From Agromyces aurantiacus (GTDB taxonomy: Bacteria > Actinomycetota > Actinomycetes > Actinomycetales > Microbacteriaceae), in the NCBI RefSeq assembly GCF_016907355.1, contig NZ_JAFBBW010000001.1, positions 992,001-1,056,000 on the forward strand: a stretch of 64,000 bases of DNA. The letters are read 5' to 3'. The translations under genes were made by a program, and so were the position numbers. Shown piece by piece: positions 780 through 51,246 of the stretch. Below the pieces are notes generated by a model. That model made no database searches, was not told the origin of the DNA, and saw only the letters and a list, made by a program, of their open reading frames with translations. Each line of letters begins with the position of its first letter. Position 1 is the first letter of the stretch.

Positions 780-2729
780 ATGAGCATGCACGGGGGCGGG
801 ATGGGGCCGCCCGGCGCGCGGCCCGCCGTGGCTCGCGGCGGGGGCATGCGCGGCCGGATCTCCAGCGCCGACGAGGCCGCGCAGCGCGCAGAGAACGCCG
901 AGGCGCCGAAGATCCCGCACCTGCTGCGCCGCATCGCCGAGCTGTTCCGGCCGCATCGGGCGGCGCTCACGGTGGTCGTGGTGCTCGTGCTGGTCGGGGC
1001 GGCGCTGAGCGTCATCCCGCCCCTGCTCACCCAGCGCGCGTTCGACGACGCGCTGTTCCCGACCGACGGCTCGGGCGACATCGGCGAGCCGAACCTGACC
1101 GCCCTCAGCTGGATCGTCGGCGCGATGATCGCCGTGTTCGTCGTCTCGGCGCTCCTCGGCGTGTGGCAGACGTTCCTCACGGCGACCATCGGCAACCGGG
1201 TCATGGGCGCGATGCGCGTCCGGCTGTTCAGCCACTTGCAGTCGATGGAGCTCAGCTTCTTCACGCGCACCAAGACCGGCGTCATCCAGTCGCGCCTCCA
1301 GAACGACGTGGGCGGCGTGGCGTCCGTGCTCACCAACACCGTGTCGAGCGTGCTCGGCAACACGGTCACCGTCATCTCGGCGTTCGTGGCGATGCTGCTG
1401 CTCAACTGGCAGCTGACCCTGATCGCGCTCGTCCTGATGCCGTTCATGGTGATCGCGCAGCGGCGCGTGGGCCAGGTGCGGGCGCGCATCGCGGCGAAGA
1501 CGCAGGAGTCGCTCTCGGAGATGACCGCGATCACGCAGGAGACGCTGTCGGTCAGCGGCATCCTGCTCTCGAAGAGCTTCACGCGGCAGAAGAGCGAGAT
1601 CGAGCGCTACGCCGACGAGAACCGCAACCAGATCTCGCTCCAGGTGCGCCAGCAGATGTCGGGGCAGTGGTTCTTCGCGATGGTCTCGATCTTCATGTCG
1701 TCGATCCCGGCGATCGTGTACCTCGTGTCGGGCTGGCTCATCACCGGCGGCGTGTCGGGCATCACGGCGGGCACGATCGTGGCGTTCACCACGGTGCAGG
1801 CGCGCCTGCTGTTCCCGCTCATGGGCCTCATGCGCGTCGCCCTCGACCTGCAGACCTCGAGCGCGCTGTTCGCGCGCATCTTCGAGTACCTCGACCTGAA
1901 GCCGGCGATCACCGACGGCCCCGACGCGCGCGAGGTGCCGGCGGGTGCGGATGCCGCGGGCGAGCCGTCGCTCGGCCGGGTCGAGTTCGACCACGTCTCG
2001 TTCCGGTACCCCGACGCCGACGCCGACCAGCGGCCGACGCTCGACGACGTGTCGTTCACGATCGAGCCGGGCCAGTTCGCCGCCTTCGTCGGACCGAGCG
2101 GCGCGGGCAAGACCACGGTCTCCTACCTCGTGCCGCGCCTGTACGAGGCCTCGAGCGGCACGGTGCGCTTCGCCGGCGTCGACGTGCGCGACCTCTCGCA
2201 GGAGTCGCTCATGTCGCACATCGGCATCGTGAGCCAGGAGACCTACCTCTTCCACGCGTCGATCGCCGAGAACCTCAGGTACGCCAAGCCGGATGCCACG
2301 GACGCCGAGCTCGAGGCCGCCGCGCGCGCCGCGAACATCCACGAGACCATCGCGTCGTTCCCCGAGGGCTACGACACCGTCGTGGGCGAGCGGGGCTACC
2401 GCCTGTCCGGCGGCGAGAAGCAGCGCATCGCGATCGCGCGCGTGCTGCTGAAGGATCCGGCGGTGCTCGTGCTCGACGAGGCGACGAGCGCGCTCGACAC
2501 GATCAGCGAGCGCGTCGTGCAGGCGGCGCTCGACGACGCGTCGCGCGGTCGAACGACGATCGCGATCGCGCACCGGCTGTCGACGGTCGTCGCGGCCGAC
2601 GTCATCTTCGTGATCGTCGCCGGCCGGATCGCCGAGCGCGGCACGCACGCCGAGCTCATCGAGGCCGGCGGGGTCTACGCGTCGCTCTACCGGCAGCAGG
2701 CGGAGCGCCCGGAGGTGGCGACGCGGTAG
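780..2729 (+). CDS. ABC transporter, fused permease and ATPase (type IV exporter half)
   Basis: A 649-residue half-transporter that would work as a dimer in the membrane, exporting an unknown drug or lipid-like substrate. After a cytoplasmic N-terminal ~60 residues comes a six-helix ABC membrane domain (roughly 60-350), then a nucleotide-binding domain. Visible motifs are Walker A GPSGAGKTT at 438-446, signature LSGGEKQRIA from 542, Walker B VLVLDE at 562-567 and the switch His in AIAHRLST. Full length for the family. ATG 780 is chosen because of the leaderless -10 element just upstream; ATG 786 is a possible alternative. It is the only exporter gene here, so a partner half is either absent (homodimer) or elsewhere. 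Substrate cannot be assigned. Confidence 0.9.
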   Translation: MSMHGGGMGPPGARPAVARGGGMRGRISSADEAAQRAENAEAPKIPHLLRRIAELFRPHRAALTVVVVLVLVGAALSVIPPLLTQRAFDDALFPTDGSGDIGEPNLTALSWIVGAMIAVFVVSALLGVWQTFLTATIGNRVMGAMRVRLFSHLQSMELSFFTRTKTGVIQSRLQNDVGGVASVLTNTVSSVLGNTVTVISAFVAMLLLNWQLTLIALVLMPFMVIAQRRVGQVRARIAAKTQESLSEMTAITQETLSVSGILLSKSFTRQKSEIERYADENRNQISLQVRQQMSGQWFFAMVSIFMSSIPAIVYLVSGWLITGGVSGITAGTIVAFTTVQARLLFPLMGLMRVALDLQTSSALFARIFEYLDLKPAITDGPDAREVPAGADAAGEPSLGRVEFDHVSFRYPDADADQRPTLDDVSFTIEPGQFAAFVGPSGAGKTTVSYLVPRLYEASSGTVRFAGVDVRDLSQESLMSHIGIVSQETYLFHASIAENLRYAKPDATDAELEAAARAANIHETIASFPEGYDTVVGERGYRLSGGEKQRIAIARVLLKDPAVLVLDEATSALDTISERVVQAALDDASRGRTTIAIAHRLSTVVAADVIFVIVAGRIAERGTHAELIEAGGVYASLYRQQAERPEVATR

Positions 2730-2738
2730 CGCCGGCGG

Positions 2739-3062
2739 TCACGCCCCTGTGCGCTCGGCGCCCGCGGGTGCGCGCCACTGGTCGCCGGCGGTCGCGGCCA
2801 GCGTCTCGAGCAGTTCGCCGACGCGGTGGTCGGATTCGACCGGGTGCCGCATCGGCAGTTCGACGACGGTGCGGTAGCGGTTGCGGCGGCCGTCCTTCTC
2901 GCGCTGCACGTAGCCGGCCTCGACGAGGTCGGCGATGATGCCCTGCGCCGTGCGTTCGGTGATGCCGACGGCCTCGGCGACCTCGCGGACGCGGATCTCG
3001 GGATCGCGGGCGAGGCAGATGAGCACATGACCGTGATTGGTGAGGAACGTCCACGTGCTCAT
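2739..3062 (-). CDS. Small winged-helix transcriptional regulator divergent from the dab operon
   Basis: A 107-residue protein that is nearly all DNA-binding domain: helices around residues 20-50 (VREVAEAVGITERTAQGIIADLVEAGYV) followed by a beta wing (REKDGRRNRYRTV). This fits the ArsR/MarR-like winged-helix group. The start at 3062 (MSTWTF) has TACGAT (3069-3074 on the plus strand) 6 nt upstream, so it is probably leaderless. It is transcribed away from dabB across an 87-bp gap, so regulation of bicarbonate uptake is a reasonable inference but is not shown by a clear operator. No metal-binding or redox cysteines are visible. Confidence 0.75.
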   Translation of the reverse strand: MSTWTFLTNHGHVLICLARDPEIRVREVAEAVGITERTAQGIIADLVEAGYVQREKDGRRNRYRTVVELPMRHPVESDHRVGELLETLAATAGDQWRAPAGAERTGA

Positions 3063-3112
3063 GGCTTCATCGTACCGGAACCCGATAACCAGAATCAGAT
3101 TACACGAATCAT

Positions 3113-3142
3113 TTGACAGGCGAAGTGTAAAACCGGTAATTT
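3113..3142 (+). promoter_or_regulatory. Promoter of the dabB-dabA-PII operon
   Basis: TTGACA (3113-3118), an 18-bp spacer, then TAATTT (3137-3142), with the ATG of dabB 7 nt further at 3150. This is the best sigma70-type promoter in this part of the window and it predicts a leaderless dabB mRNA. It lies in the same 87-bp gap as the start of the divergent regulator. Confidence 0.6.
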
Positions 3143-3149
3143 GCATCGC

Positions 3150-4625
3150 ATGTCTGAACTCGTGCTCGCCGCCATCGCGGTCCAGGCCGTCGTCGCGGCG
3201 GCCGCGACGATCGCGCTCCGCCGGCCGCCCCGGGCGATCGGCCTCGCCGTCGGCGGATCGGTCGTCGCGTTCGCCCTCGCGACCGCCGCGGTGGTCGACG
3301 CCGCGATCCGCGGCGGCGATCGGGTCGGCCCCGTGCTGCTCGCCTTCGTCCTCGGCGTCGCACTGCTGGTGCAGGCGTTCGGGCGCGGCAACCTGCGCGG
3401 CGATCCGGCCGCGGGGCGCTTCGCGGCGCTCGCGGCCTGGCTCGCCGCCGCGTCGGGGGCGGCGGCGTCGGCGCTCGACCTGCTCGCGATCGCCGCCGCC
3501 TGGACCGCGGGTACCGTGACCGTGATACTCCTCCTCGGCCACGCCGGCCGCTGGGAGCAGGCGCGGGTCGCACGTCGCCGGGCGGCGGCCGCGCTCCTCG
3601 TCGGCGACGCCGGCCTGTGGCTCGCGGTGGCGGCCGTCCAGCTCGATCGAGGCGACCTCGGCCTCTCGGCGCTCGGCGGCGTGACGCCCGCGACGGCCGC
3701 GATCGCCGGCACGGGCGTCGCGCTCGCCGCACTCTCGCGCGCCGCCTCCATCCCCTTCCACGGCTGGCTGCCCGCGTCGCTCGCGGCGCCGACCCCGGTC
3801 TCGGCGCTGCTGCACGCGGGCTTCGTGAATGCGGGCGCCGTGCTCCTCCTGCGCACCTCCGACCTGCCGAGCCCCGTCGCCGGCGTGATCGTCGGGGCGT
3901 GCGGCGCGCTCACCGTGGTCGTCGCCGGCGCCGCGATGCTCACGCGGCCCGACGTGAAGGGCCGACTCGTGCACTCGACCGCCGCCCAGATGGGGTTCAT
4001 GCTCGTGGCCTGCGCCATCGGCGCGTGGGCCTTGGCACTCTTCCACGTCATGGCGCACGGCCTGTTCAAGGCCGCATCCTTCCTCGGCTCCGGCACCGTC
4101 GCATCCGCGCACGCCACGGGTCGATCGCCTGCGCCGGCGACCTCGACGGGTGCGTGGCGCCGTCTCGGCCGGCCGGCCGCGATCGTGCTCACGGCCCTCG
4201 CGCCCGTGGTCGCCGCCGTGCAGACGGGTGGACTCTCGACCGCCTCGGCGGCGATGCTGCTCTTCACCGCGCTCGCCGTCGGGGTGGCGGCGGCCGCCGC
4301 GCTCGGCGCATCGTCCGCCGGCGGAGGTCGTGCCTCCCTCCTGGCGGTCGCCGCCGCCGGGGTGGGCGTCGCGTACGTGCTCGTCGCGCACGCGTTCGAC
4401 GTCTGGCTCCGACTCGACGCCGGACCCGGGGCGGTGACGTGGCTGCTCGTGCCCGCGCTCGCGCTGGCCCTGGGCCTCGTGGCCCTCCTCGCCCGAGGGC
4501 GCGGCGCCCTCGCCGACACCGCCTACGCCTTCGCGCTCGGCTGGGCGCGGCCACCCATCCCGGCCCGGCGGTCCGATCCGGGCCTGTCCGCCACCGTCCC
4601 CTCCGAATACGGGAGCCGCGCATGA
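3150..4625 (+). CDS. dabB: DabB-type proton-translocating membrane subunit (NuoL/MrpA-like)
   Basis: A 491-residue integral membrane protein of the proton-conducting antiporter family (NuoL/MrpA-like). In DAB inorganic-carbon pumps this subunit supplies proton flow that drives the partner DabA to hydrate CO2 to bicarbonate in the cytoplasm. Visible family landmarks are SIPFHGWLPASLAAPTPVSALLHA, with the conserved His and Pro-rich loop, then HSTAAQMGFML and the FHVMAHGLFKAASFLGSG helix. Hydrophobic Ala/Leu/Val helices run over most of the length. ATG 3150 follows a strong promoter; an in-frame TTG at 3141 is less likely. Its TGA overlaps the dabA ATG (ATGA), which indicates coupled translation. 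The next gene, with DabA metal ligands, distinguishes it from a respiratory complex I subunit. Confidence 0.87.
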   Translation: MSELVLAAIAVQAVVAAAATIALRRPPRAIGLAVGGSVVAFALATAAVVDAAIRGGDRVGPVLLAFVLGVALLVQAFGRGNLRGDPAAGRFAALAAWLAAASGAAASALDLLAIAAAWTAGTVTVILLLGHAGRWEQARVARRRAAAALLVGDAGLWLAVAAVQLDRGDLGLSALGGVTPATAAIAGTGVALAALSRAASIPFHGWLPASLAAPTPVSALLHAGFVNAGAVLLLRTSDLPSPVAGVIVGACGALTVVVAGAAMLTRPDVKGRLVHSTAAQMGFMLVACAIGAWALALFHVMAHGLFKAASFLGSGTVASAHATGRSPAPATSTGAWRRLGRPAAIVLTALAPVVAAVQTGGLSTASAAMLLFTALAVGVAAAAALGASSAGGGRASLLAVAAAGVGVAYVLVAHAFDVWLRLDAGPGAVTWLLVPALALALGLVALLARGRGALADTAYAFALGWARPPIPARRSDPGLSATVPSEYGSRA

Positions 4626-7318
4626 ACGACCACCGCCGTCCGACCGAGACCCGCGGACCCGGTGCACCGGGCGACACCCGCGAGGGACGCGCCGCCGTCA
4701 TCCGCGGCATGATCGCGGCCGCCGACCGCGTCGTCGCGCCGCATCGCCCGCTCACCGCGTTCATCGCCCGGAACCCGCTCGCGGGCTACGAACGGTGGAC
4801 GTTCGACGAGGCCGCGGAACGGGCGGCCCGGGAGCACGGGACGCGCCTGACCCTCGACGAGGCCGGGTTCCGATGCCGCCACGCCGCCGGCGAGATCACC
4901 GCGGACGACCTGCGCGCGGCCCTCGAACGGCACGTCTCGGAGGCGCGCGACCGGTCGCGTCGGTCGCCGAGCCCCGGACGGCACGGGCTCGCCGTCGCCG
5001 ACATCCTGCTCGCCGACCTCCTCGACGCCCCCGTCGCCGGTGGGCCGGAGCGCACGATGCACACGCCGTCCGCGCTCGCGGCGCCGCGCACGGCGGCCCG
5101 CGTCGACGACCTGGTCCTGCGCTGGACCACGGCGTACCTCGGGGCCGAGCACGTCGCGTGGTCGCCGTGGCGCGACGAGGCCTTCTGGCCGGGGTGGCGC
5201 AGGCTCGCCTCGCGCGACCCGATGGTGCCGCGCCACGTTCGCCGCGGCATCCGATCGCTCGGTGCCGACCCCGAGGATGCCGTCGCCGACGCGCTCGCGC
5301 ACTGGCGGCTGCTCGGCGACGACGCCGATCGCTTCCTCCGCGCCGAGATCGCCGCGCTACCCGGGCTCGCGGGGCACGTCGCCGACGCCGCCGAGGCGGG
5401 GCGCGGCATCGACCTCGTCGACCTCATCGCGGTGAGGGTCACGTACGAGCGGCTCCTCGTGCGACCGGGCGTGGTCGTCGATCCGGGTGCGGCGGTCGCC
5501 GCGCCGTCGTCGCCCCGGCCCGAGCAGTCCCGGGTCGACGCGGTGCTCCGCCGGCTCGGCCTCCCCGAGGAGGATGCGACGGCGCGCGCGACCGTCGGCC
5601 GGGTGCTCGGCCTCGTGCGACCCGAGGAACGCGTGCTCATCTGGCAGGAGGCGCTCGACCGCAGTGCCGCGCGGCGGCTCGCACCCCCGCGGACGCGCGC
5701 CCGGCAGGAGTCCGACGCCGGTGCGCCCGCGTCGGCGTCGGAGCGTGCGCTCGCGCAGGCGGTCTTCTGCATCGACCCTCGATCCGAGGGGCTGCGCCGC
5801 GCCCTCGAGCACGAGGCGGATGGTCGAGGACGCGGCGTCGAGACCCTCGGGTTCGCCGGGTTCTTCGCGGTGCCGATGCGCTGGCACGACCTCGACGGCA
5901 GCGACCCGACCGCCGCATGCCCGGTGCTGCTCGCGCCGCGCCGCGACGTCGGCGAGCGCGCGGCCGACACCGCGGGCGCCGCGCGCTACACGGCTCGGCT
6001 GCGCGCGGGCGCCGCGGCTGCCGGCGTCGTCTCGCGCGCCAAGAACTCGACGCTCGCCCCGTACGCGCTCGCCGAGACCGCAGGGTGGGCCATGGGCGTC
6101 GGGGCCGCGCTGCGCACCGGCGCTCCGCTCGGGTGGGCGCGCGTCGCCGATGCCTGGCGCGCTCGGTCGGCGCGGCCGGCCACGCGCGTCGATGCCGACG
6201 CGGTCTTCGCCGTGGACGAGCGCGTCGCCTACGCCGAGGCGGCCCTTCGGATGATGGGCCTCGTCGACGGGTTCGCGCGCGTCGTGCTCCTCGCGGGCCA
6301 CGGCGCCGACACGGTCAACAACCCGTTCGCCTCGGCGCTGCACTGCGGAGCGTGCGGCGGGCATCGCGGCGGGCCGAACGCGCGCGCGGCCGCCGCGCTG
6401 CTGAACGACCCCGGGACGCGCGCCGGCCTCGCGGGTCGCGGCATCCGCATCCCCGAGGACACCGTGTTCGTGGCGGTCGAGCACGAGACCGTGAGCGACC
6501 GGGTCGAGGTGTGCGAGCCGTGGTCGGTGCCCGGGTCGCACCTCGCTGACCTCGCCGAGCTCGAGGCGCTGCTCGCCGGGGCGCGTGCCCGCTCGGTCCG
6601 CGAGCGCCTCGCGGCACTGCCGGGCGCTCCGGCCGGCGGTGCCGACGTCCTGCAGGCCGACGCCGACCGGCGTGCCGCCGACTGGTCCGAGTCGTACCCG
6701 GAGTGGGGGCTCGCGGGAAACGCGGCCCTCGTGGTCGCGCCGCGGCGCGAGACCAGGGGGCTCGACCTCGGTCGCCGGGCCTTCCTGCACAGCTACGACC
6801 CCGAGGCCGATCCGGATGGCGCGGCCCTCGAGACCATCCTCACGGCGCCGATGATCGTGGCCCAGTGGATCAACGCCCAGTACCTCGCCTCGACGGTCGA
6901 GCCCGATCGCTGGGGCGCCGGACCGAAGCCCCTCGTCAACGTGGTCGGCGACGTCGCGGTGCAGGCCGGGTACGGCGGCGACCTGCGCACGGGCCTGCCG
7001 TGGCAGTCCGTGGGCGTCGGACGCAGCGCCGTGCACGACCCCGTGCGACTGCAGGTGTTCGTGCAGGCCCCGATCGGCCGGATCTGCGCGATCGTCGACC
7101 GGTCGAGCCTCGTGCGCGGCCTGCTGGACGGCGAGTGGATCGCGTTGCGGGCTCGCGAGCACGCGTCGGATCCCTGGCTCCGTTACGGCCCGCTCGGCTG
7201 GTCGCGCGACGGCATCGGCGAGCCGGGCGCATCCGCTCGCTCGGCCGACCGCGACCCTGCCGACGCCCGAGCCGCATCCCCGAACCGCACCGCTCAGCCC
7301 ATGGAGGAACGTCGATGA
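4622..7318 (+). CDS. dabA: DabA (DUF2309) inorganic carbon pump subunit
   Basis: An 898-residue protein of the UPF0753/DUF2309 family, the cytoplasmic beta-carbonic-anhydrase-like half of the DAB bicarbonate accumulation complex. The zinc site characterised in Halothiobacillus DabA (Cys, Asp, His, Cys) is intact: C383 and D385 in VFCIDPRSEG, H560 in AGHGADTVNNP and C575 in LHCGACGGHRGG. The Cys-x-Asp and the 15-residue His-Cys spacing match the known protein. The N-terminus has the family pattern (PHRPLTAFIARNPLAGYE). ATGA overlaps on both sides tie it to dabB and the PII-like gene. The organism otherwise looks heterotrophic, so bicarbonate for carboxylases rather than CO2 fixation is the likely use (inference). 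Confidence 0.93.
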   Translation: MNDHRRPTETRGPGAPGDTREGRAAVIRGMIAAADRVVAPHRPLTAFIARNPLAGYERWTFDEAAERAAREHGTRLTLDEAGFRCRHAAGEITADDLRAALERHVSEARDRSRRSPSPGRHGLAVADILLADLLDAPVAGGPERTMHTPSALAAPRTAARVDDLVLRWTTAYLGAEHVAWSPWRDEAFWPGWRRLASRDPMVPRHVRRGIRSLGADPEDAVADALAHWRLLGDDADRFLRAEIAALPGLAGHVADAAEAGRGIDLVDLIAVRVTYERLLVRPGVVVDPGAAVAAPSSPRPEQSRVDAVLRRLGLPEEDATARATVGRVLGLVRPEERVLIWQEALDRSAARRLAPPRTRARQESDAGAPASASERALAQAVFCIDPRSEGLRRALEHEADGRGRGVETLGFAGFFAVPMRWHDLDGSDPTAACPVLLAPRRDVGERAADTAGAARYTARLRAGAAAAGVVSRAKNSTLAPYALAETAGWAMGVGAALRTGAPLGWARVADAWRARSARPATRVDADAVFAVDERVAYAEAALRMMGLVDGFARVVLLAGHGADTVNNPFASALHCGACGGHRGGPNARAAAALLNDPGTRAGLAGRGIRIPEDTVFVAVEHETVSDRVEVCEPWSVPGSHLADLAELEALLAGARARSVRERLAALPGAPAGGADVLQADADRRAADWSESYPEWGLAGNAALVVAPRRETRGLDLGRRAFLHSYDPEADPDGAALETILTAPMIVAQWINAQYLASTVEPDRWGAGPKPLVNVVGDVAVQAGYGGDLRTGLPWQSVGVGRSAVHDPVRLQVFVQAPIGRICAIVDRSSLVRGLLDGEWIALRAREHASDPWLRYGPLGWSRDGIGEPGASARSADRDPADARAASPNRTAQPMEERR

Positions 7319-7638
7319 ACATCGAAGGCCTGACGCCGATGACGAAGATCGAGCTCGTCATCCCCACCACCGAAGTCGACGCCGTCGCCGCGCTCATGCG
7401 GTCGGTCGGCGCGACCGGGTACACCTCGCTCGGCGGCGTGTCCGGGGTCGGCCATCACGGCGCCCACGGCGGGCGCATGCTGTTCAACGATCGCGACGCG
7501 CTCACGCTGCTCATCACGGTCGTGCCCGCCGAGCGCGCCGCGACCATCGTCGCGGGGCTCCGGCCGGTGCTTGACGCGGGATCGGGCGTGATGTTCGTCA
7601 CGGAGACGGCTGTCAGCCGGCCCGAGTACTTCCGCTGA
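7315..7638 (+). CDS. PII-like (DUF190/SbtB-type) regulator linked to DAB uptake
   Basis: A 107-residue protein with the PII-like ferredoxin fold pattern: N-terminal strand MTKIELVIPTTEVDAVAALMRSVGATGYT, a Gly/His-rich flexible loop (GGVSGVGHHGAHGG, about residues 40-54) in place of the T-loop, then LTLLITVVPAERAATIVAGL. PII-like trimers beside bicarbonate transporters (SbtB, CPII) bind nucleotides or bicarbonate and control uptake; a similar role for the dabAB complex is inferred. It overlaps dabA by ATGA. The His-rich loop is unusual and could bind a metal. Exact ligand not predictable. Confidence 0.82.
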   Translation: MNIEGLTPMTKIELVIPTTEVDAVAALMRSVGATGYTSLGGVSGVGHHGAHGGRMLFNDRDALTLLITVVPAERAATIVAGLRPVLDAGSGVMFVTETAVSRPEYFR

Positions 7639-7683
7639 CGCGAGGCGCGACCCGGAACTCGTGGCCCGCGACCTGCGACGCGC

Positions 7684-8349
7684 TCACGAGCGCTCGGCGA
7701 GCATGTCCTCCATGAGCGCGATCTCGGACTGCTGGCTCGAGACGATCGACTCGGCGAGCGACACGACGACCGGGTAGTCGGACCGGTCGAGCGCGGCCTC
7801 GGCCATCTCGACCGCACCGGCGTGGTGCGCGATCATGAGCTCGAGGAACCGGCGCTCGGCCTCGACGCCGTCGAGCGAGCGCAGCTCCTCGACCTGCGCG
7901 GGCGTCGCGAGCCCGGGCATCGGCTCGCCGGGCGCGTGACCCGACGCGTCGGCCTCGCCGACGCCCGCCCCGTGGCCGTCGTGCCCGCCGCCGCCCTCGG
8001 CCGGCCCGGTCATCCAGGCCATGGACGGCTCCGAACCGAACTGCGGCAGCCCCCACTCGGCGAGCCAGCCGTACATCTGACCGGCCTGCTGCGCCTGGGT
8101 CGTGGCGATGTCGTAGGCGAGCAGGCGCACGTCGGGGTCGTCGGTCGCGTCGCGCACGATCATCGCGAGCTCGACGCCCTGATGGTGGTGCACCTGCATG
8201 TCGCGCGCGAACCCGGCCTCGACGCTCGCGTCGGTCGGGGTCGGGTCGCCGAGCGTCGACAGCCGCCCGATCGAGAACGCGATCGCGCCCACGGCCAGCA
8301 GCGCCACGCCGGCCGCGAGCACGATCGCCCAGCGGGCGGGGCGCGTCAC
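7684..8349 (-). CDS. DUF305 family membrane-anchored protein
   Basis: A 221-residue protein with one N-terminal transmembrane segment (WAIVLAAGVALLAVGAIAF) and an extracytoplasmic DUF305 ferritin-like region. The two-fold pattern of the family is clear: QVHHHQGVELAMIV near residue 50 and MIAHHAGAVEMAEAAL near residue 175, each with His-His before a helix. Between them is a His/Gly-rich linker (GGGGHDGHGAG). DUF305 proteins occur with copper or other metal handling genes, but the function is not established. GTG 8349 is chosen because it overlaps the preceding stop (GTGA), so the two genes are translationally coupled. Confidence 0.88.
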   Translation of the reverse strand: MTRPARWAIVLAAGVALLAVGAIAFSIGRLSTLGDPTPTDASVEAGFARDMQVHHHQGVELAMIVRDATDDPDVRLLAYDIATTQAQQAGQMYGWLAEWGLPQFGSEPSMAWMTGPAEGGGGHDGHGAGVGEADASGHAPGEPMPGLATPAQVEELRSLDGVEAERRFLELMIAHHAGAVEMAEAALDRSDYPVVVSLAESIVSSQQSEIALMEDMLAERS

Positions 8350-46495: not shown

Positions 46496-47557
<1,062 letters not shown>

Positions 47558-47573
47558 GGATTCATCCGTAAGC

Positions 47574-48848
47574 ATGCGAAAGAAGTTTGAGCCCATCGAC
47601 GTTTCCGACGTCTTCGTAGCCGGAAACTACCCTGCGCATACATACAATCCGCGCAGCGGCACACATCTGGAATCCGAGATTACGTCGTATTTGCGCCAGC
47701 GTGGCAAGTGTTTGGTGATATCAGGCCCAAGTAAGTCTGGGAAGACGGTTCTTGTTGAACACATGCTGCCTCGGTCGTTTGCAGTCTGGATCAGTGGGAA
47801 TCGGCTAAGGACGATCGAGGACGTATGGTCAGCAATTGTCGATCAGCTTGATGCATATACCGAGGTGAGTAGGTCTGAGTCTGAGGGTTCGGGTGTTGCC
47901 CTCGAAGGCAGCGTGACCGTTGGCATTCCTGAGTTTCTACAGGCGAAAGTCGGGGCTCGCCCGACATTCGACAAGAATGAGGCAATTGCTGGGCGTCACG
48001 TCAGGTCGGCGGCGAGCACCGTTCTTGAGTATCTTGCGCATACACCAGTGCCAATTGTCATCGATGACTTTCATTACATCGAGGATGAGGGTCTGCGCAA
48101 GCAAGTGACGCTCGTAGTCAAGGAACTGATCCTCGCGACGCATGTAATTCTCATTGCAGTTCCGCACGTGGCGTTCGATCCGGTGCGAGATAGTCCCGAC
48201 ATGAACGGCCGGGTATGGGGTGTACGGGTGGAGCCGTGGGAGGTTCAAGAACTCGCCGAGATCGCAGTGGACGGCTTCCGAGTGTTGAATCTCATCGACG
48301 CGGATGGCCTGGGCAACAAACTGGCCGAGGCGAGTCTAGGCGCCCCGTTCATCATGCAGCAGCTCTGCCAAGATCTCGTATGGGCAAACAACATCTACGA
48401 ATCGAATCTCTCCACGCTCCCGCTGTCGCCGCCAAGTTCTTGGCCGGTATTCTTCCGGACGGTCGCGGACCGTCATGTTCCCGGAATATTCGAGAAGCTC
48501 AAGCAAGGGCCTCCTACTCGAGGACAGGAGCGCGTCAACCGGCCGTTGAAGGATGGTCGCAGGACTGACAGCTATGGAGCGATTCTGCTCGGCGTGAAGT
48601 CGTTGAGCCCTAGGCTGGAGTACCACTACACGGTTCTGTCGAAGGAGCTTGAGAAGTTCTTCAGCGAAGTGCCCAAGAATCAGCAGCTGACAAGCGCGTT
48701 GGGTCACATGGCTGAGATCGCACGCAAAGGCCGTGGCACGAGTGACGCCGCCTTCGCCTACAAGGATGACCGAGTGAACGTTGCGGATCCATTTCTTGCG
48801 TTTTACCTTCAGTACGGAAGTTGGACGCTACCTGGGCCTGATGCTTAG
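47574..48848 (+). CDS. P-loop ATPase of unknown role in a low-GC island
   Basis: A 424-residue protein. Walker A GPSKSGKT at residues 51-58 and a Walker B-like IVIDDFHYI at 161-169 place it among AAA/STAND-type ATPases (ATP-binding domain near residues 20-260, with GAPFIMQQLC as in archaeal-type STAND ATPases). The C-terminal ~150 residues (SSWPVFFRTVADRHVPGIFEKLKQG; FLAFYLQYGSW) include a helical, winged-helix-like part. Codons use A/T third bases (AAG/TTT/ATT/GTT mix) much more than neighbours, so it was acquired. It begins 16 nt past nrdF. Similar stand-alone ATPases occur in defence islands, but no effector domain is visible. Confidence 0.8.
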   Translation: MRKKFEPIDVSDVFVAGNYPAHTYNPRSGTHLESEITSYLRQRGKCLVISGPSKSGKTVLVEHMLPRSFAVWISGNRLRTIEDVWSAIVDQLDAYTEVSRSESEGSGVALEGSVTVGIPEFLQAKVGARPTFDKNEAIAGRHVRSAASTVLEYLAHTPVPIVIDDFHYIEDEGLRKQVTLVVKELILATHVILIAVPHVAFDPVRDSPDMNGRVWGVRVEPWEVQELAEIAVDGFRVLNLIDADGLGNKLAEASLGAPFIMQQLCQDLVWANNIYESNLSTLPLSPPSSWPVFFRTVADRHVPGIFEKLKQGPPTRGQERVNRPLKDGRRTDSYGAILLGVKSLSPRLEYHYTVLSKELEKFFSEVPKNQQLTSALGHMAEIARKGRGTSDAAFAYKDDRVNVADPFLAFYLQYGSWTLPGPDA

Positions 48849-49193
48849 TAGTTGCGGGCCGCGGGGTCGATTCATCGCACGCCGTACGTGACAATGGGCC
48901 GACATGTCAAAGAATGGCCCCGCTTGGCTCACACCAGTAGGTAATCGCCACGCCGGCGGCTGAATGAGACCCGGATCCTGCCTGAAGGAGCAACTTGAGG
49001 GCGGCGGCAAAGTTCGCACGCCTCCGCGCGATGCGTGACCTGGAAGGAGTGTAGCCACCTGACCGTGGGCGGTGAATGCAGTATCTTTCGCCTTGCTCAG
49101 GGGGTTGCATGGTTCGGCCCTACTGCACGGTGCTCAAGCCCACGTCGAGTACCGCGAAGAGAGATCCCTATCGATGACCATCCGACGGGACAT
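48849..49193. other. Intergenic DNA inside the acquired island, no gene supported
   Basis: Between the converging ATPase and chaperone genes. Short open frames exist on both strands (for example minus-strand 48907-49110), but none has a ribosome site or a recognisable product. It may hold decayed gene remains. Confidence 0.4.
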
Positions 49194-49694
49194 TCATGGC
49201 ATCGATGCGCGCTCGTGCTGTCGACGACGCCTGTTGCGCTCACCCGCGTCCTCGGCCGCCAAGGCGACAACGGCGCCGAACTCGAAGGGTAGATCGTACT
49301 TCGGCAGACCGGCATCCAAGGTCATGCTCGCGACATCAAGCCGGTGGTAATGATGCGCCGCGGCGTTGGCAAGTGGCTGCGCAGGATCAAGGGCGCCTGA
49401 GCTCGCGTCTTCTTGGGTCAACGGACGACTCGCCTCAATGCGGACCGCCATCCTCGAGGTGACGACTCCCGCCTCAGCGCCGACCTCCCCGTCGGTCTCC
49501 CCTGGAAGGTAGGCGGCAAAGCGGTAGGCCGTCTCGATGATGATCGTCGGTGCGTCGACAGTGTAAGAGCTGCTTGAGAGTTCGTAATCGATCCGGGCTA
49601 GGAGCACATTCGACGCGTCCACCTCGAGGTTGCGCCTCCATGATCGCTCGATCGGAGTCACGTCAACGACTTCGAACGTAAGGTCGTCAAGCAT
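49194..49694 (-). CDS. SecB-like chaperone of a toxin-antitoxin-chaperone module
   Basis: A 166-residue protein. The C-terminal part YHRLDVASMTLDAGLPKYDL followed by PFEF lines up with the SecB hallmark [25 protein letters not shown], and the centre has SecB-like antiparallel strands (LLARIDYELSSSSY; APTIIIETAYRFAAYL) ending in an acidic loop (GETDGEVGAE). In M. tuberculosis TAC the SecB-like protein protects the antitoxin from degradation. It is third in the same order here and overlaps the antitoxin gene by 8 nt. It is too divergent to be a housekeeping SecB, which most actinobacteria lack. Confidence 0.72.
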   Translation of the reverse strand: MLDDLTFEVVDVTPIERSWRRNLEVDASNVLLARIDYELSSSSYTVDAPTIIIETAYRFAAYLPGETDGEVGAEAGVVTSRMAVRIEASRPLTQEDASSGALDPAQPLANAAAHHYHRLDVASMTLDAGLPKYDLPFEFGAVVALAAEDAGERNRRRRQHERASMP

Positions 49695-50262
49695 CTAGAG
49701 CCTTCTCTTGTGCGCTGAGGCGTGCGGTCCATTCGCCCGACCAGCCGTGCAGCTCGATTGCCACCTGGCCCGTGCCGAGGCGTACTCGCCCCCGACTCTC
49801 GTCAATTTCGTAGCCAGCGCGCACGAAGGTGTAAGCGGCGTCCGCACCGTCGTGGCCCGCGGCGTACGACACATAGACGTCGTGGTACTCGCGCTTGGCT
49901 CTGTTGGCGACTTGGATTTGGGGTGCATCCGGGTCAGTGGGGACTAGTCGAGTGATGAGTCGATATCCGAGTGCTCGGAAGTACCTGGCGAAGGTACTTG
50001 CGCGCAGGTCATCCTCGCCGTTCAAGATCTGTGAAACGCGGCCCTCGGTGACTCGGAGTCGCGCGGCGATGTCACGACGGGACAGGTCAGGCCGCGCATC
50101 GAGCGCGCAATGCAAGAGAGCATGCATTTGGATGGGAAGCTCTGCCGCTGCTAGCTCCACAGCAAGCTGCGGATCATCCTCGATAGCGTCCAGCAGCGGC
50201 CTCTGGCTAGTTCCGCGGGACGGTCGATGGGTCCTAGCCCTCCGGGCTGGCAGGTCGGTCAT
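49687..50262 (-). CDS. higA: HTH antitoxin (HigA-like) with C-terminal extension
   Basis: A 191-residue protein. A basic N-terminus, helices around 30-55, then a Cro/CI-type HTH: DLSRRDIAARLRVTEGRVSQILNG, followed by ASTFARYFRALGYRL, as in HigA-type antitoxins. After ~residue 105 an extra ~85 residues (IQVANRAKREYHDVYVSYAAG; QVAIELHGWSGEWTARL) are much longer than in ordinary HigA. In TAC systems a C-terminal chaperone-addiction segment is what the SecB-like protein recognises, so this extension is the candidate. ATG 50262 lies inside the toxin gene (29-nt overlap). Confidence 0.78.
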   Translation of the reverse strand: MTDLPARRARTHRPSRGTSQRPLLDAIEDDPQLAVELAAAELPIQMHALLHCALDARPDLSRRDIAARLRVTEGRVSQILNGEDDLRASTFARYFRALGYRLITRLVPTDPDAPQIQVANRAKREYHDVYVSYAAGHDGADAAYTFVRAGYEIDESRGRVRLGTGQVAIELHGWSGEWTARLSAQEKALDA

Positions 50263-50782
50263 GTTCAACGTCCTCCTCACGGATTGTCTTGGCCAACTGG
50301 ATCTCTTCGGGCGGCGCCTTCGGCCCGGTCTTGGGAAACATGTGCGTAAGCCGGATGGTGTAGTCGAAGTCTGGGATCTCCCAGTACCTTGCGCCCTTCG
50401 GGGCATCGTCGATATGAGAGATCGGCGCCTTGGGCTCGTAGTTGCCCTCGTCATCGGTGTCGAACATCGGTATCCGCTTGGAGCCGATCTTCCACTCCCA
50501 CACGCCATCAACCAAGTAGTTCATCGCCCGGCGGTAGAGAGGCTCACCGTGCTGGACGAAGTGCTTGAGATGGGCCAAGAGTTTGAAGTAGTCATCGGGC
50601 TGTCGTTCGTCCGGCCACGGATCTCCTTCCACATGGTCTTCATCGAGTCGCCACTCACCCTTTCTCAATCGGGCCAGGGCCTCCGATACCGGAGACGTGC
50701 TACCGTCCGCCCTGACGGCGCACTCGACGATGTAGTAGTCGTCGTCGGTGCCTACGAGCAACTCTCGCACAACTTTAGCCAT
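50234..50782 (-). CDS. higB: HigB-like toxin (RelE/Gp49 superfamily)
   Basis: A 182-residue protein. N-terminal strand and helix ECAVRADGSTSPVSEALARL fit the HigB start; DYFKLLAHLKHFVQHGEPL and VWEWKIGSKRIPMFDT are the helix and core strands; the end, YTIRLTHMFPKTGPKAPPEEIQLAKTIREED, is the classic Gp49/HigB tail (HGF.KK..KTP..EI..A). An insertion of about 35 residues separates the last strands, making it longer than Mtb HigB1 (125 aa). Likely a ribosome-dependent mRNase (inference). ATG 50782 lies within an inverted repeat that is the probable autoregulatory operator. Confidence 0.75.
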   Translation of the reverse strand: MAKVVRELLVGTDDDYYIVECAVRADGSTSPVSEALARLRKGEWRLDEDHVEGDPWPDERQPDDYFKLLAHLKHFVQHGEPLYRRAMNYLVDGVWEWKIGSKRIPMFDTDDEGNYEPKAPISHIDDAPKGARYWEIPDFDYTIRLTHMFPKTGPKAPPEEIQLAKTIREEDVEHDRPASPEG

Positions 50783-50791
50783 TCCTAAAGT
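50772..50791. promoter_or_regulatory. Inverted repeat over the toxin start codon, probable antitoxin operator
   Basis: ACTTTAG (50772-50778) and CTAAAGT (50785-50791) are perfect 7-bp inverted arms with a 6-bp spacer that contains the toxin start codon (50780-50782, minus strand). TACTTT immediately upstream on the minus strand may be the -10. This fits repression by the HTH antitoxin. Confidence 0.65.
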
Positions 50792-51005
50792 AGGTTCCTG
50801 CGTCGTCGGGTCATAGGACCCATGCAATCAGCGACGGGCCGCGGGTTCTGTGACCCATTTTGGGGGTCTGCGGCGCTACGTGGTCGAGCTGCGGACGCGG
50901 CTGTTGAGTCGATCTCTGGACGTCGCGAGGCGCTCGGCGCTACGACATACGTCGCAGCGGTCTCGCCGATCAGGGGCCTTGCGGCCGGGTTGTGTGTCGC
51001 AAATA

Positions 51006-51185
51006 TCAATCGATGAACTCGCGCCCGAGGTGCTCAAGCCAGTCGAGGGCGCCGTCGACTTGAGCCCGCACGGCTGCTCCTCGACTCCTGGAAGAGTCGA
51101 GCCGCACCTGAACCAACGCAGATGAATCACGCCTGATGAAGTCGAGCGCCTCACGCGCCGGGGCCTCTTCTGGCGCCGAGCTCAA
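51006..51185 (-). CDS. Possible small protein or gene remnant
   Basis: A 59-codon minus-strand frame ending REFID-stop, from a TTG at 51185. It reads as an amphipathic helical segment (REALDFIRRDSSALVQVRLD; VRAQVDGALDWLEHLGREF) more protein-like than chance in this DNA, but has no ribosome site, and its upstream part is stopped near the tmsA-like gene promoter. Either a tiny gene or the truncated end of a lost one. The rest of 50792-51246 has no supportable gene. Confidence 0.22.
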   Translation of the reverse strand: MSSAPEEAPAREALDFIRRDSSALVQVRLDSSRSRGAAVRAQVDGALDWLEHLGREFID

Positions 51186-51246
51186 GCGATTCAGACCCTG
51201 TACGTCCGTCGTCGGATTGCCTCTGTGGAGAGCGGCTCCCGCGGAC

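Follow-up and report, generated by a model that had tools for sequence, protein, structure and literature searches.

Does a cluster of three small overlapping genes in an actinobacterial chromosome encode a tripartite toxin-antitoxin-chaperone (TAC) module, and what kind of protein fills its third position? The question arises from a 64,000-nucleotide stretch of the Agromyces aurantiacus genome (hereafter the window; the genome is a single 3.88-Mb contig), for which a first-pass annotation had proposed three overlapping minus-strand genes, in the order toxin, antitoxin and third protein, that form a TAC module with a SecB-like third gene. We think it quite probable that the locus is a module of this kind, with a HigB toxin, a helix-turn-helix (HTH) antitoxin and a SecB-fold chaperone; the gene layout, the HigB and SecB folds of the models and the pattern of antitoxin tail lengths among relatives all support it. 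The parts of the module are as follows.

50234..50782, minus strand: toxin gene, 182 amino acids (ATG at 50782, stop at 50234), HigB/Gp49 type (BECR fold), a predicted mRNA endonuclease
50333..50473, minus strand: toxin residues 104-150, between catalytic R103 and K151, holding the subfamily insert
49687..50262, minus strand: antitoxin gene, 191 amino acids (ATG at 50262), a Cro/XRE-type HTH followed by a 91-residue C-terminal tail
49714..49749, minus strand: candidate chaperone-addiction segment, antitoxin tail residues 172-183, HGWSGEWTARLS, chosen by eye by analogy with the chaperone-addiction (ChAD) segment of Mycobacterium tuberculosis
49194..49694, minus strand: third gene, 166 amino acids (ATG at 49694), a predicted SecB-fold chaperone (four strands, then helices)
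50772..50791, no strand: palindrome ACTTTAG-N6-CTAAAGT over the toxin start codon, the probable antitoxin operator

The open reading frame (ORF) coordinates bear out the proposed arrangement: the three genes are consecutive, the toxin and antitoxin ORFs overlap by 29 nt, and the antitoxin stop and third-gene start share 8 nt (ATGCTTGA), which suggests coupled translation. Sigma-70 and terminator scans yielded nothing useful.

Related loci

Searches with the toxin had hits in 3 of 396 genomes sampled from the phylum, 6 of 394 from the class, 4 of 248 from the order and 2 of 60 from the genus (each count includes the genome itself, and genomes overlap between samples), with two loci in a named genome collection. 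Within the family, the antitoxin search matched 22 of 199 genomes, strongly in only three besides the own genome (weak matches had E values of 3e-4 to 0.01), and the third-gene search matched six of 199, strongly only in the own genome (E 2.6e-4 or worse in the others). Protein searches with the third gene and the toxin returned the window's own copies only; in tblastn no plasmid matched the third gene and no plasmid or phage matched the toxin, and a scan of viral contigs with the toxin alignment found no relative.

There are 11 related-toxin loci: the window, L003, L004, L029, L030, L035, L036, L037, L105, L106 and L107. The same toxin-antitoxin-third layout, with a clearly SecB-like third gene, occurs in five of the relatives (L029, L030, L036, L037 and L105), and the window's third gene is faintly SecB-like. 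The third slot holds a gene of Pfam family DUF6941 in L003 (E 4e-10; 2014-2412) and L107 (E 2.5e-13; 2374-2790) and an unclassified 127-residue protein in L106 (737-1120), and no third gene was recognised in L004 or in L035. In L035 (1341-2200) the toxin homologue is split between two frames ahead of an intact antitoxin, with the palindrome retained. A further locus, L002, was excluded: its antitoxin has a toxin remnant in front, and the antitoxin N-terminus (1501-1890) resembles a toxin start (KVSRTMIYVGTHNA), apparently the remnant of a toxin-antitoxin deletion.

The toxin

The predicted structure of the toxin is the HigB fold. Its tail, first described as Gp49/HigB-like, does match Pfam PF05973 (Gp49), at 17.9 bits (E 0.0032) and below the 23.9-bit cut-off, so that under Pfam's rule, fold and residues aside, the toxin is not a member of that family. 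The HigB of an Escherichia coli TAC is listed under the Gp49 family (PMC11980606). The catalytic positions E96, K98, R103 and K151, assigned by alignment to 6af3 and with the help of PMC9098466, are kept in all 10 aligned toxins. The structure of M. tuberculosis HigB1 (7awk) aligns as far as its residue 126, and the window toxin is about 56-60 residues longer, close to the excess of ~60 first estimated. The insertion placed ahead of the last strands proved to be one insert before the last strand: 47 residues separate R103 and K151, versus 18 between R73 and K92 of Streptococcus pneumoniae HigB, making the insert about 30 residues beyond the latter. Judging from the model, the toxin would be a ribosome-dependent mRNA endonuclease of the HigB type that carries an insert specific to its lineage, and presumably an active RNase. 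CmdT, the toxin of another E. coli TAC, is by contrast an mRNA ADP-ribosyltransferase (PMC11618068).

The antitoxin and its tail

The antitoxin was expected to combine a Cro-type HTH with an extension of ~85 residues. The HTH_3 match is barely above its cut-off (23.1 versus 23 bits), the HTH ends at residue 100, and 91 residues follow it; the M. tuberculosis ChAD, in comparison, is the last 45 residues of its antitoxin (PMC5105189). Antitoxins were compared in an alignment of 11 sequences, one of which (L100) belongs to a different module. Tails are 52-113 residues long in the nine loci that have a third gene of any kind, and 35, 37 and 22 residues in L004, L035 and L002, which lack a recognised one; among these three, the toxin is intact in L004 only. 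As aligned, the extension thus appears to be absent from the chaperone-free relatives, one of the marks of a TAC antitoxin. Tryptophan occurs in no aligned HTH part, in eight of nine long tails and in no short tail. The extension of M. tuberculosis HigA1 carries two similar stretches, WHRLSSYR and WARHISVR, of which the first is the main bound region, and changing both tryptophans abolishes chaperone binding (PMC5105189; PMC6377645). By eye, HGWSGEWTARLS would be their nearest counterpart here.

These tails also bear on a rival reading, in which the locus is a two-component HigBA-type module whose antitoxin and extension neutralise the toxin alone, the third gene (SecB-fold or not) being a dispensable linked accessory. 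L004, with its related toxin and HTH antitoxin but no recognised third gene, fits this reading, as do the DUF6941 genes (L003, L107) or unclassified gene (L106) that may hold the third slot and the faint sequence resemblance of the window's third protein to its counterparts. However, antitoxins without a third gene lose most of the tail (22-37 versus 52-113 residues), as addiction would lead one to expect; the antitoxin stop and the third gene share 8 nt; and a clear SecB-like gene is kept in the third slot of 5 of the 10 other loci. We therefore regard a self-sufficient two-component module as quite unlikely.

Is the third protein SecB-like?

The predicted structure of the third protein has a SecB fold, another mark of a TAC (predicted local distance difference test score, pLDDT, 75.6, and weak after residue 138). 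Foldseek on this model, a check suggested at first pass, likewise indicated a SecB-like fold, with SecB-like proteins in the model's own alignment and 12-13% identity to Rv1957, the SecB-like chaperone of the M. tuberculosis TAC. Because the structure alignment included SecB-like relatives, the sequence was tested separately, against a profile of 11 proteins that excluded the window protein. For comparison we used 2001 ORF frames of 120-400 codons, de-duplicated, from the locus sequences examined, 1993 of them unrelated to profile members. Eight of the 2001 scored as high as the third protein or higher, and all eight contain profile members. With smaller profiles, 13 or 32 of 5000 shuffles scored as high, the third protein came first among 306 window frames, and the match spanned residues 56-137 of 166. 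Some relatives are far clearer: when left out of the profile in turn, L030, L036, L037, L029, L105 and L100 scored 27-54 bits (a level reached by none of 3000 shuffles and none of the 1993 frames), the L030 protein finds Rv1957 by direct sequence search (E 1.4e-5), and so does a four-member SecB-like profile without the window protein (E 5.4e-6).

Several results weigh against a SecB-like third protein and against a TAC. The protein matches nothing in Pfam, NCBIfam or PADLOC, nor any PDB sequence; the family libraries offered nothing usable (only PHROG 22340, at E 0.21), and a sequence search with it did not find Rv1957. Nor is there a match over cut-off to Pfam PF02556 (SecB), although this does not exclude a TAC chaperone, since 33 TAC chaperones fall outside PF02556 (PMC4257090). 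The structural model is not independent, because its alignment held SecB-like proteins. The SecB hallmark claimed for the C-terminal third is present as a Tyr-x-Arg...Ser-Met...Pro...Leu-Pro-Phe stretch (HYHRLDVASMTLDAGLPKYDLPFEF), but its alignment to SecB-like relatives is weak: hhalign against four of them joined only the 29 residues from Tyr-x-Arg to Pro-Phe (probability 0.6%, P 0.096). Sequence support from the 11-protein profile is thin, at 5.2 bits (versus the 27-54 bits of clear SecB-like proteins), and 46 of 10000 shuffles, or 74 of 10000 with other weighting, scored as high. Without L106 in the profile, the score falls to 4.2 bits under one weighting, equalled by 98 of 10000 shuffles and 5 of 1993 frames, and to 3.6 bits under the other, equalled by 141 and 8. 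To these may be added the long antitoxin tail of L029, which has no tryptophan.

The SecB fold might instead be inherited from the alignment, the real protein being of an unrelated beta-alpha type. The alignment-led model, the 14-22% identity to its relatives, the missing family match and sequence scores that barely exceed chance once L106 is omitted all leave room for this. Yet the protein stands at or near the top of the 1993 unrelated frames with every profile tried, and its gene occupies the same position as clear SecB-like genes, so we consider an unrelated protein improbable. From sequence, the SecB identity is suggestive, not more; once the modelled fold and the gene position are added, the case for it is good. 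The locus would then be an operon of toxin, antitoxin and SecB-like gene as in other TACs, the SecB call in the window being drawn from the fold model.

The L106 protein, whose C-terminus looked SecB-like by eye, was rejected as such after the leave-one-out test (-0.6 bits; 187 of 1993 unrelated frames as high) and is now left unclassified. The L029 third protein (98-1105; 335 amino acids) has a SecB-like N-terminal part and about 170 extra C-terminal residues, with a weak Bestrophin-like Pfam match, below cut-off, in the C-terminal region.

A probable operator at the toxin start

The inverted repeat reported over the toxin start was located at 50772-50791 (ACTTTAG-gaatgg-CTAAAGT), where it spans the start codon. 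A perfect 7-bp repeat is common (21% of 3000 random 100-nt window stretches), one with AT-rich arms rare (0.1%), and a stretch of 441 bases holds six inverted pairs. Chance was possible for the repeat alone and was dropped given its recurrence at related toxin starts: TTTA-N8-TAAA lies near the toxin start in nine of the 11 loci (the exceptions, L037 and L107, are the most divergent), versus 21 occurrences in all 531,795 bases of examined sequence, duplicates of these loci included. A by-product of conserved MAKV-type coding was rejected as well, since in L029 and L035 the palindrome lies upstream of the start codon, where coding alone cannot explain it; in L004 it starts 17 nt inside the listed ORF. 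HigA1 binds a palindrome in its own promoter (PMC6377645), and by analogy the HTH of the window antitoxin probably binds this one, which would repress the operon.

Genomic surroundings and a proposed release of the toxin

The module lies in a variable stretch of chromosome, next to a candidate defence gene.

47560..51223, no strand: variable segment of the chromosome, flanked by nrdF and an FAD-binding oxidoreductase gene
47574..48848, plus strand: AAA ATPase gene within the variable segment, convergent with the module, with a match to PDC-S59, a candidate defence family in PADLOC (E 2.6e-24)

In the genus, nrdF is found in 58 of 60 genomes and the FAD oxidoreductase gene in 38 of 60. The comparison covered the five relatives whose FAD protein is most similar (91-95%); in these, the two genes lie within about 10 kb of each other. 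Their blastn matches to the window end at 47553-47559 and resume at 51224-51246, with no match (E 1e-5) in 47560-51223 and other contents in each; tblastn (E 0.01) of the toxin, antitoxin, third gene and ATPase found no match in these five. The interval holds Thoeris ThsA and ThsB in L101 (G968; 2463-3907), a CBASS cyclase with a Cap15-type effector, a TIR protein and a KAP-like ATPase in L102 (G951; 992-7834), a GmrSD/NsnA-like gene in L103, one 199-codon ORF in L099, and an HTH gene accompanied by a SecB gene (PF02556, E 0.0021, below cut-off) in L100 (G971; 1234-2656). The L100 pair follows an ORF without family assignment and is possibly another TAC. GC content is 61-64% around nrdF, 54-64% in the variable segment and about 70% beyond. 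The segment resembles a site of gene exchange that defence systems make use of, and it suggests actinobacterial phages as a challenge for the module; such a hotspot shows the company that the module keeps, not its function, which is a further point against the TAC reading.

How might the TAC module work? The SecB-fold third protein would hold the long tryptophan-bearing antitoxin tail, a putative chaperone-addiction segment that may be prone to aggregation or proteolysis unless held. Were the chaperone drawn away, most likely by an abundant newly made phage structural protein, the antitoxin would be degraded, and the freed toxin would stop translation. This release step is proposed because of two E. 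coli precedents: in CmdTAC a capsid protein displaces the chaperone (PMC11618068), and in HigBAC a lambda tail protein does so (as told in PMC11980606). By this analogy, phage-triggered release may be the natural role, at about an even chance. A working TAC that serves stress response or gene stabilisation instead, which is compatible with the TAC core, seems to us possible, if short of even. The best studied TAC, of M. tuberculosis, is described as stress-responsive (PMC4257090), and the defence company is circumstantial; on the other side stand the two E. coli TACs whose described triggers are structural proteins of phages (PMC11618068, PMC11980606) and the Thoeris and CBASS systems at the same site in close relatives.

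Comparison with known systems

TACs built on HigBA, HicAB and MqsRA pairs have already been published (PMC5105189). One of the closest known systems is the M. tuberculosis TAC, higB1-higA1-Rv1957, from which the module departs in toxin length and insert, antitoxin tail and third protein, as given above. The window module shares with E. coli HigBAC and CmdTAC its three genes, including one for a SecB-like chaperone; a phage trigger is known for those two and is a proposal here. Compared with S. pneumoniae HigBA (6af3, 6af4), the toxin has an insert, the antitoxin has a long tail and a third gene follows. Closer likenesses are a Microbacterium suaedae locus (L003/L031), with a related toxin (42% identity), an antitoxin and, in L003, the palindrome, and the same-genus locus L107, with a related toxin (22% identity) and an antitoxin; unlike in the window, the third gene of both is DUF6941. 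The literature searched on TAC, SecB-like, HigB and Actinobacteria yielded no account of this toxin subfamily, which is not proof of absence. The module would extend TACs to a subfamily of toxins that carry an insert of their own, and its putative chaperone appears too diverged for current family models, so that such modules are probably undercounted.

Variants of the third slot

The family offers natural variants, with a SecB-like, DUF6941, unclassified or no third gene and a tail length that varies accordingly, so that the origin of chaperone dependence, and the substitution of SecB by other proteins, become directly testable. DUF6941, of which we found no mention in the literature searched, stands third in L003 and L107 and possibly replaces the SecB-like chaperone there; the idea that it is a chance neighbour in L003 was discarded, as L107 shows the same layout. 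One could go further and see the third slot as a swappable sensor cassette, SecB-like or unrelated DUF6941, each with a long antitoxin tail. Chaperone addiction would then reach beyond SecB, with DUF6941 as a new phage sensor that holds the antitoxin and the module in the window as one state of a mix-and-match defence family. We put this forward tentatively and lean against it. A shared fold of DUF6941 and the SecB-like profile is unsupported (hhalign 0.7%). Eight further DUF6941 loci (8 of 150 family genomes, with ~1.5 kb on each side) have no antitoxin, toxin or SecB-like profile match within these flanks, and since none carries the partners, DUF6941 is not a dedicated partner of the toxin family. 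In two loci, L114 (699-1902) and L115 (1468-2668), DUF6941 is the last of three small adjoining genes, the first two without a Pfam match, which is a second, different three-gene layout containing it. Upstream in L106 is an ORF resembling hsdS (Methylase_S, E 0.022, below cut-off).
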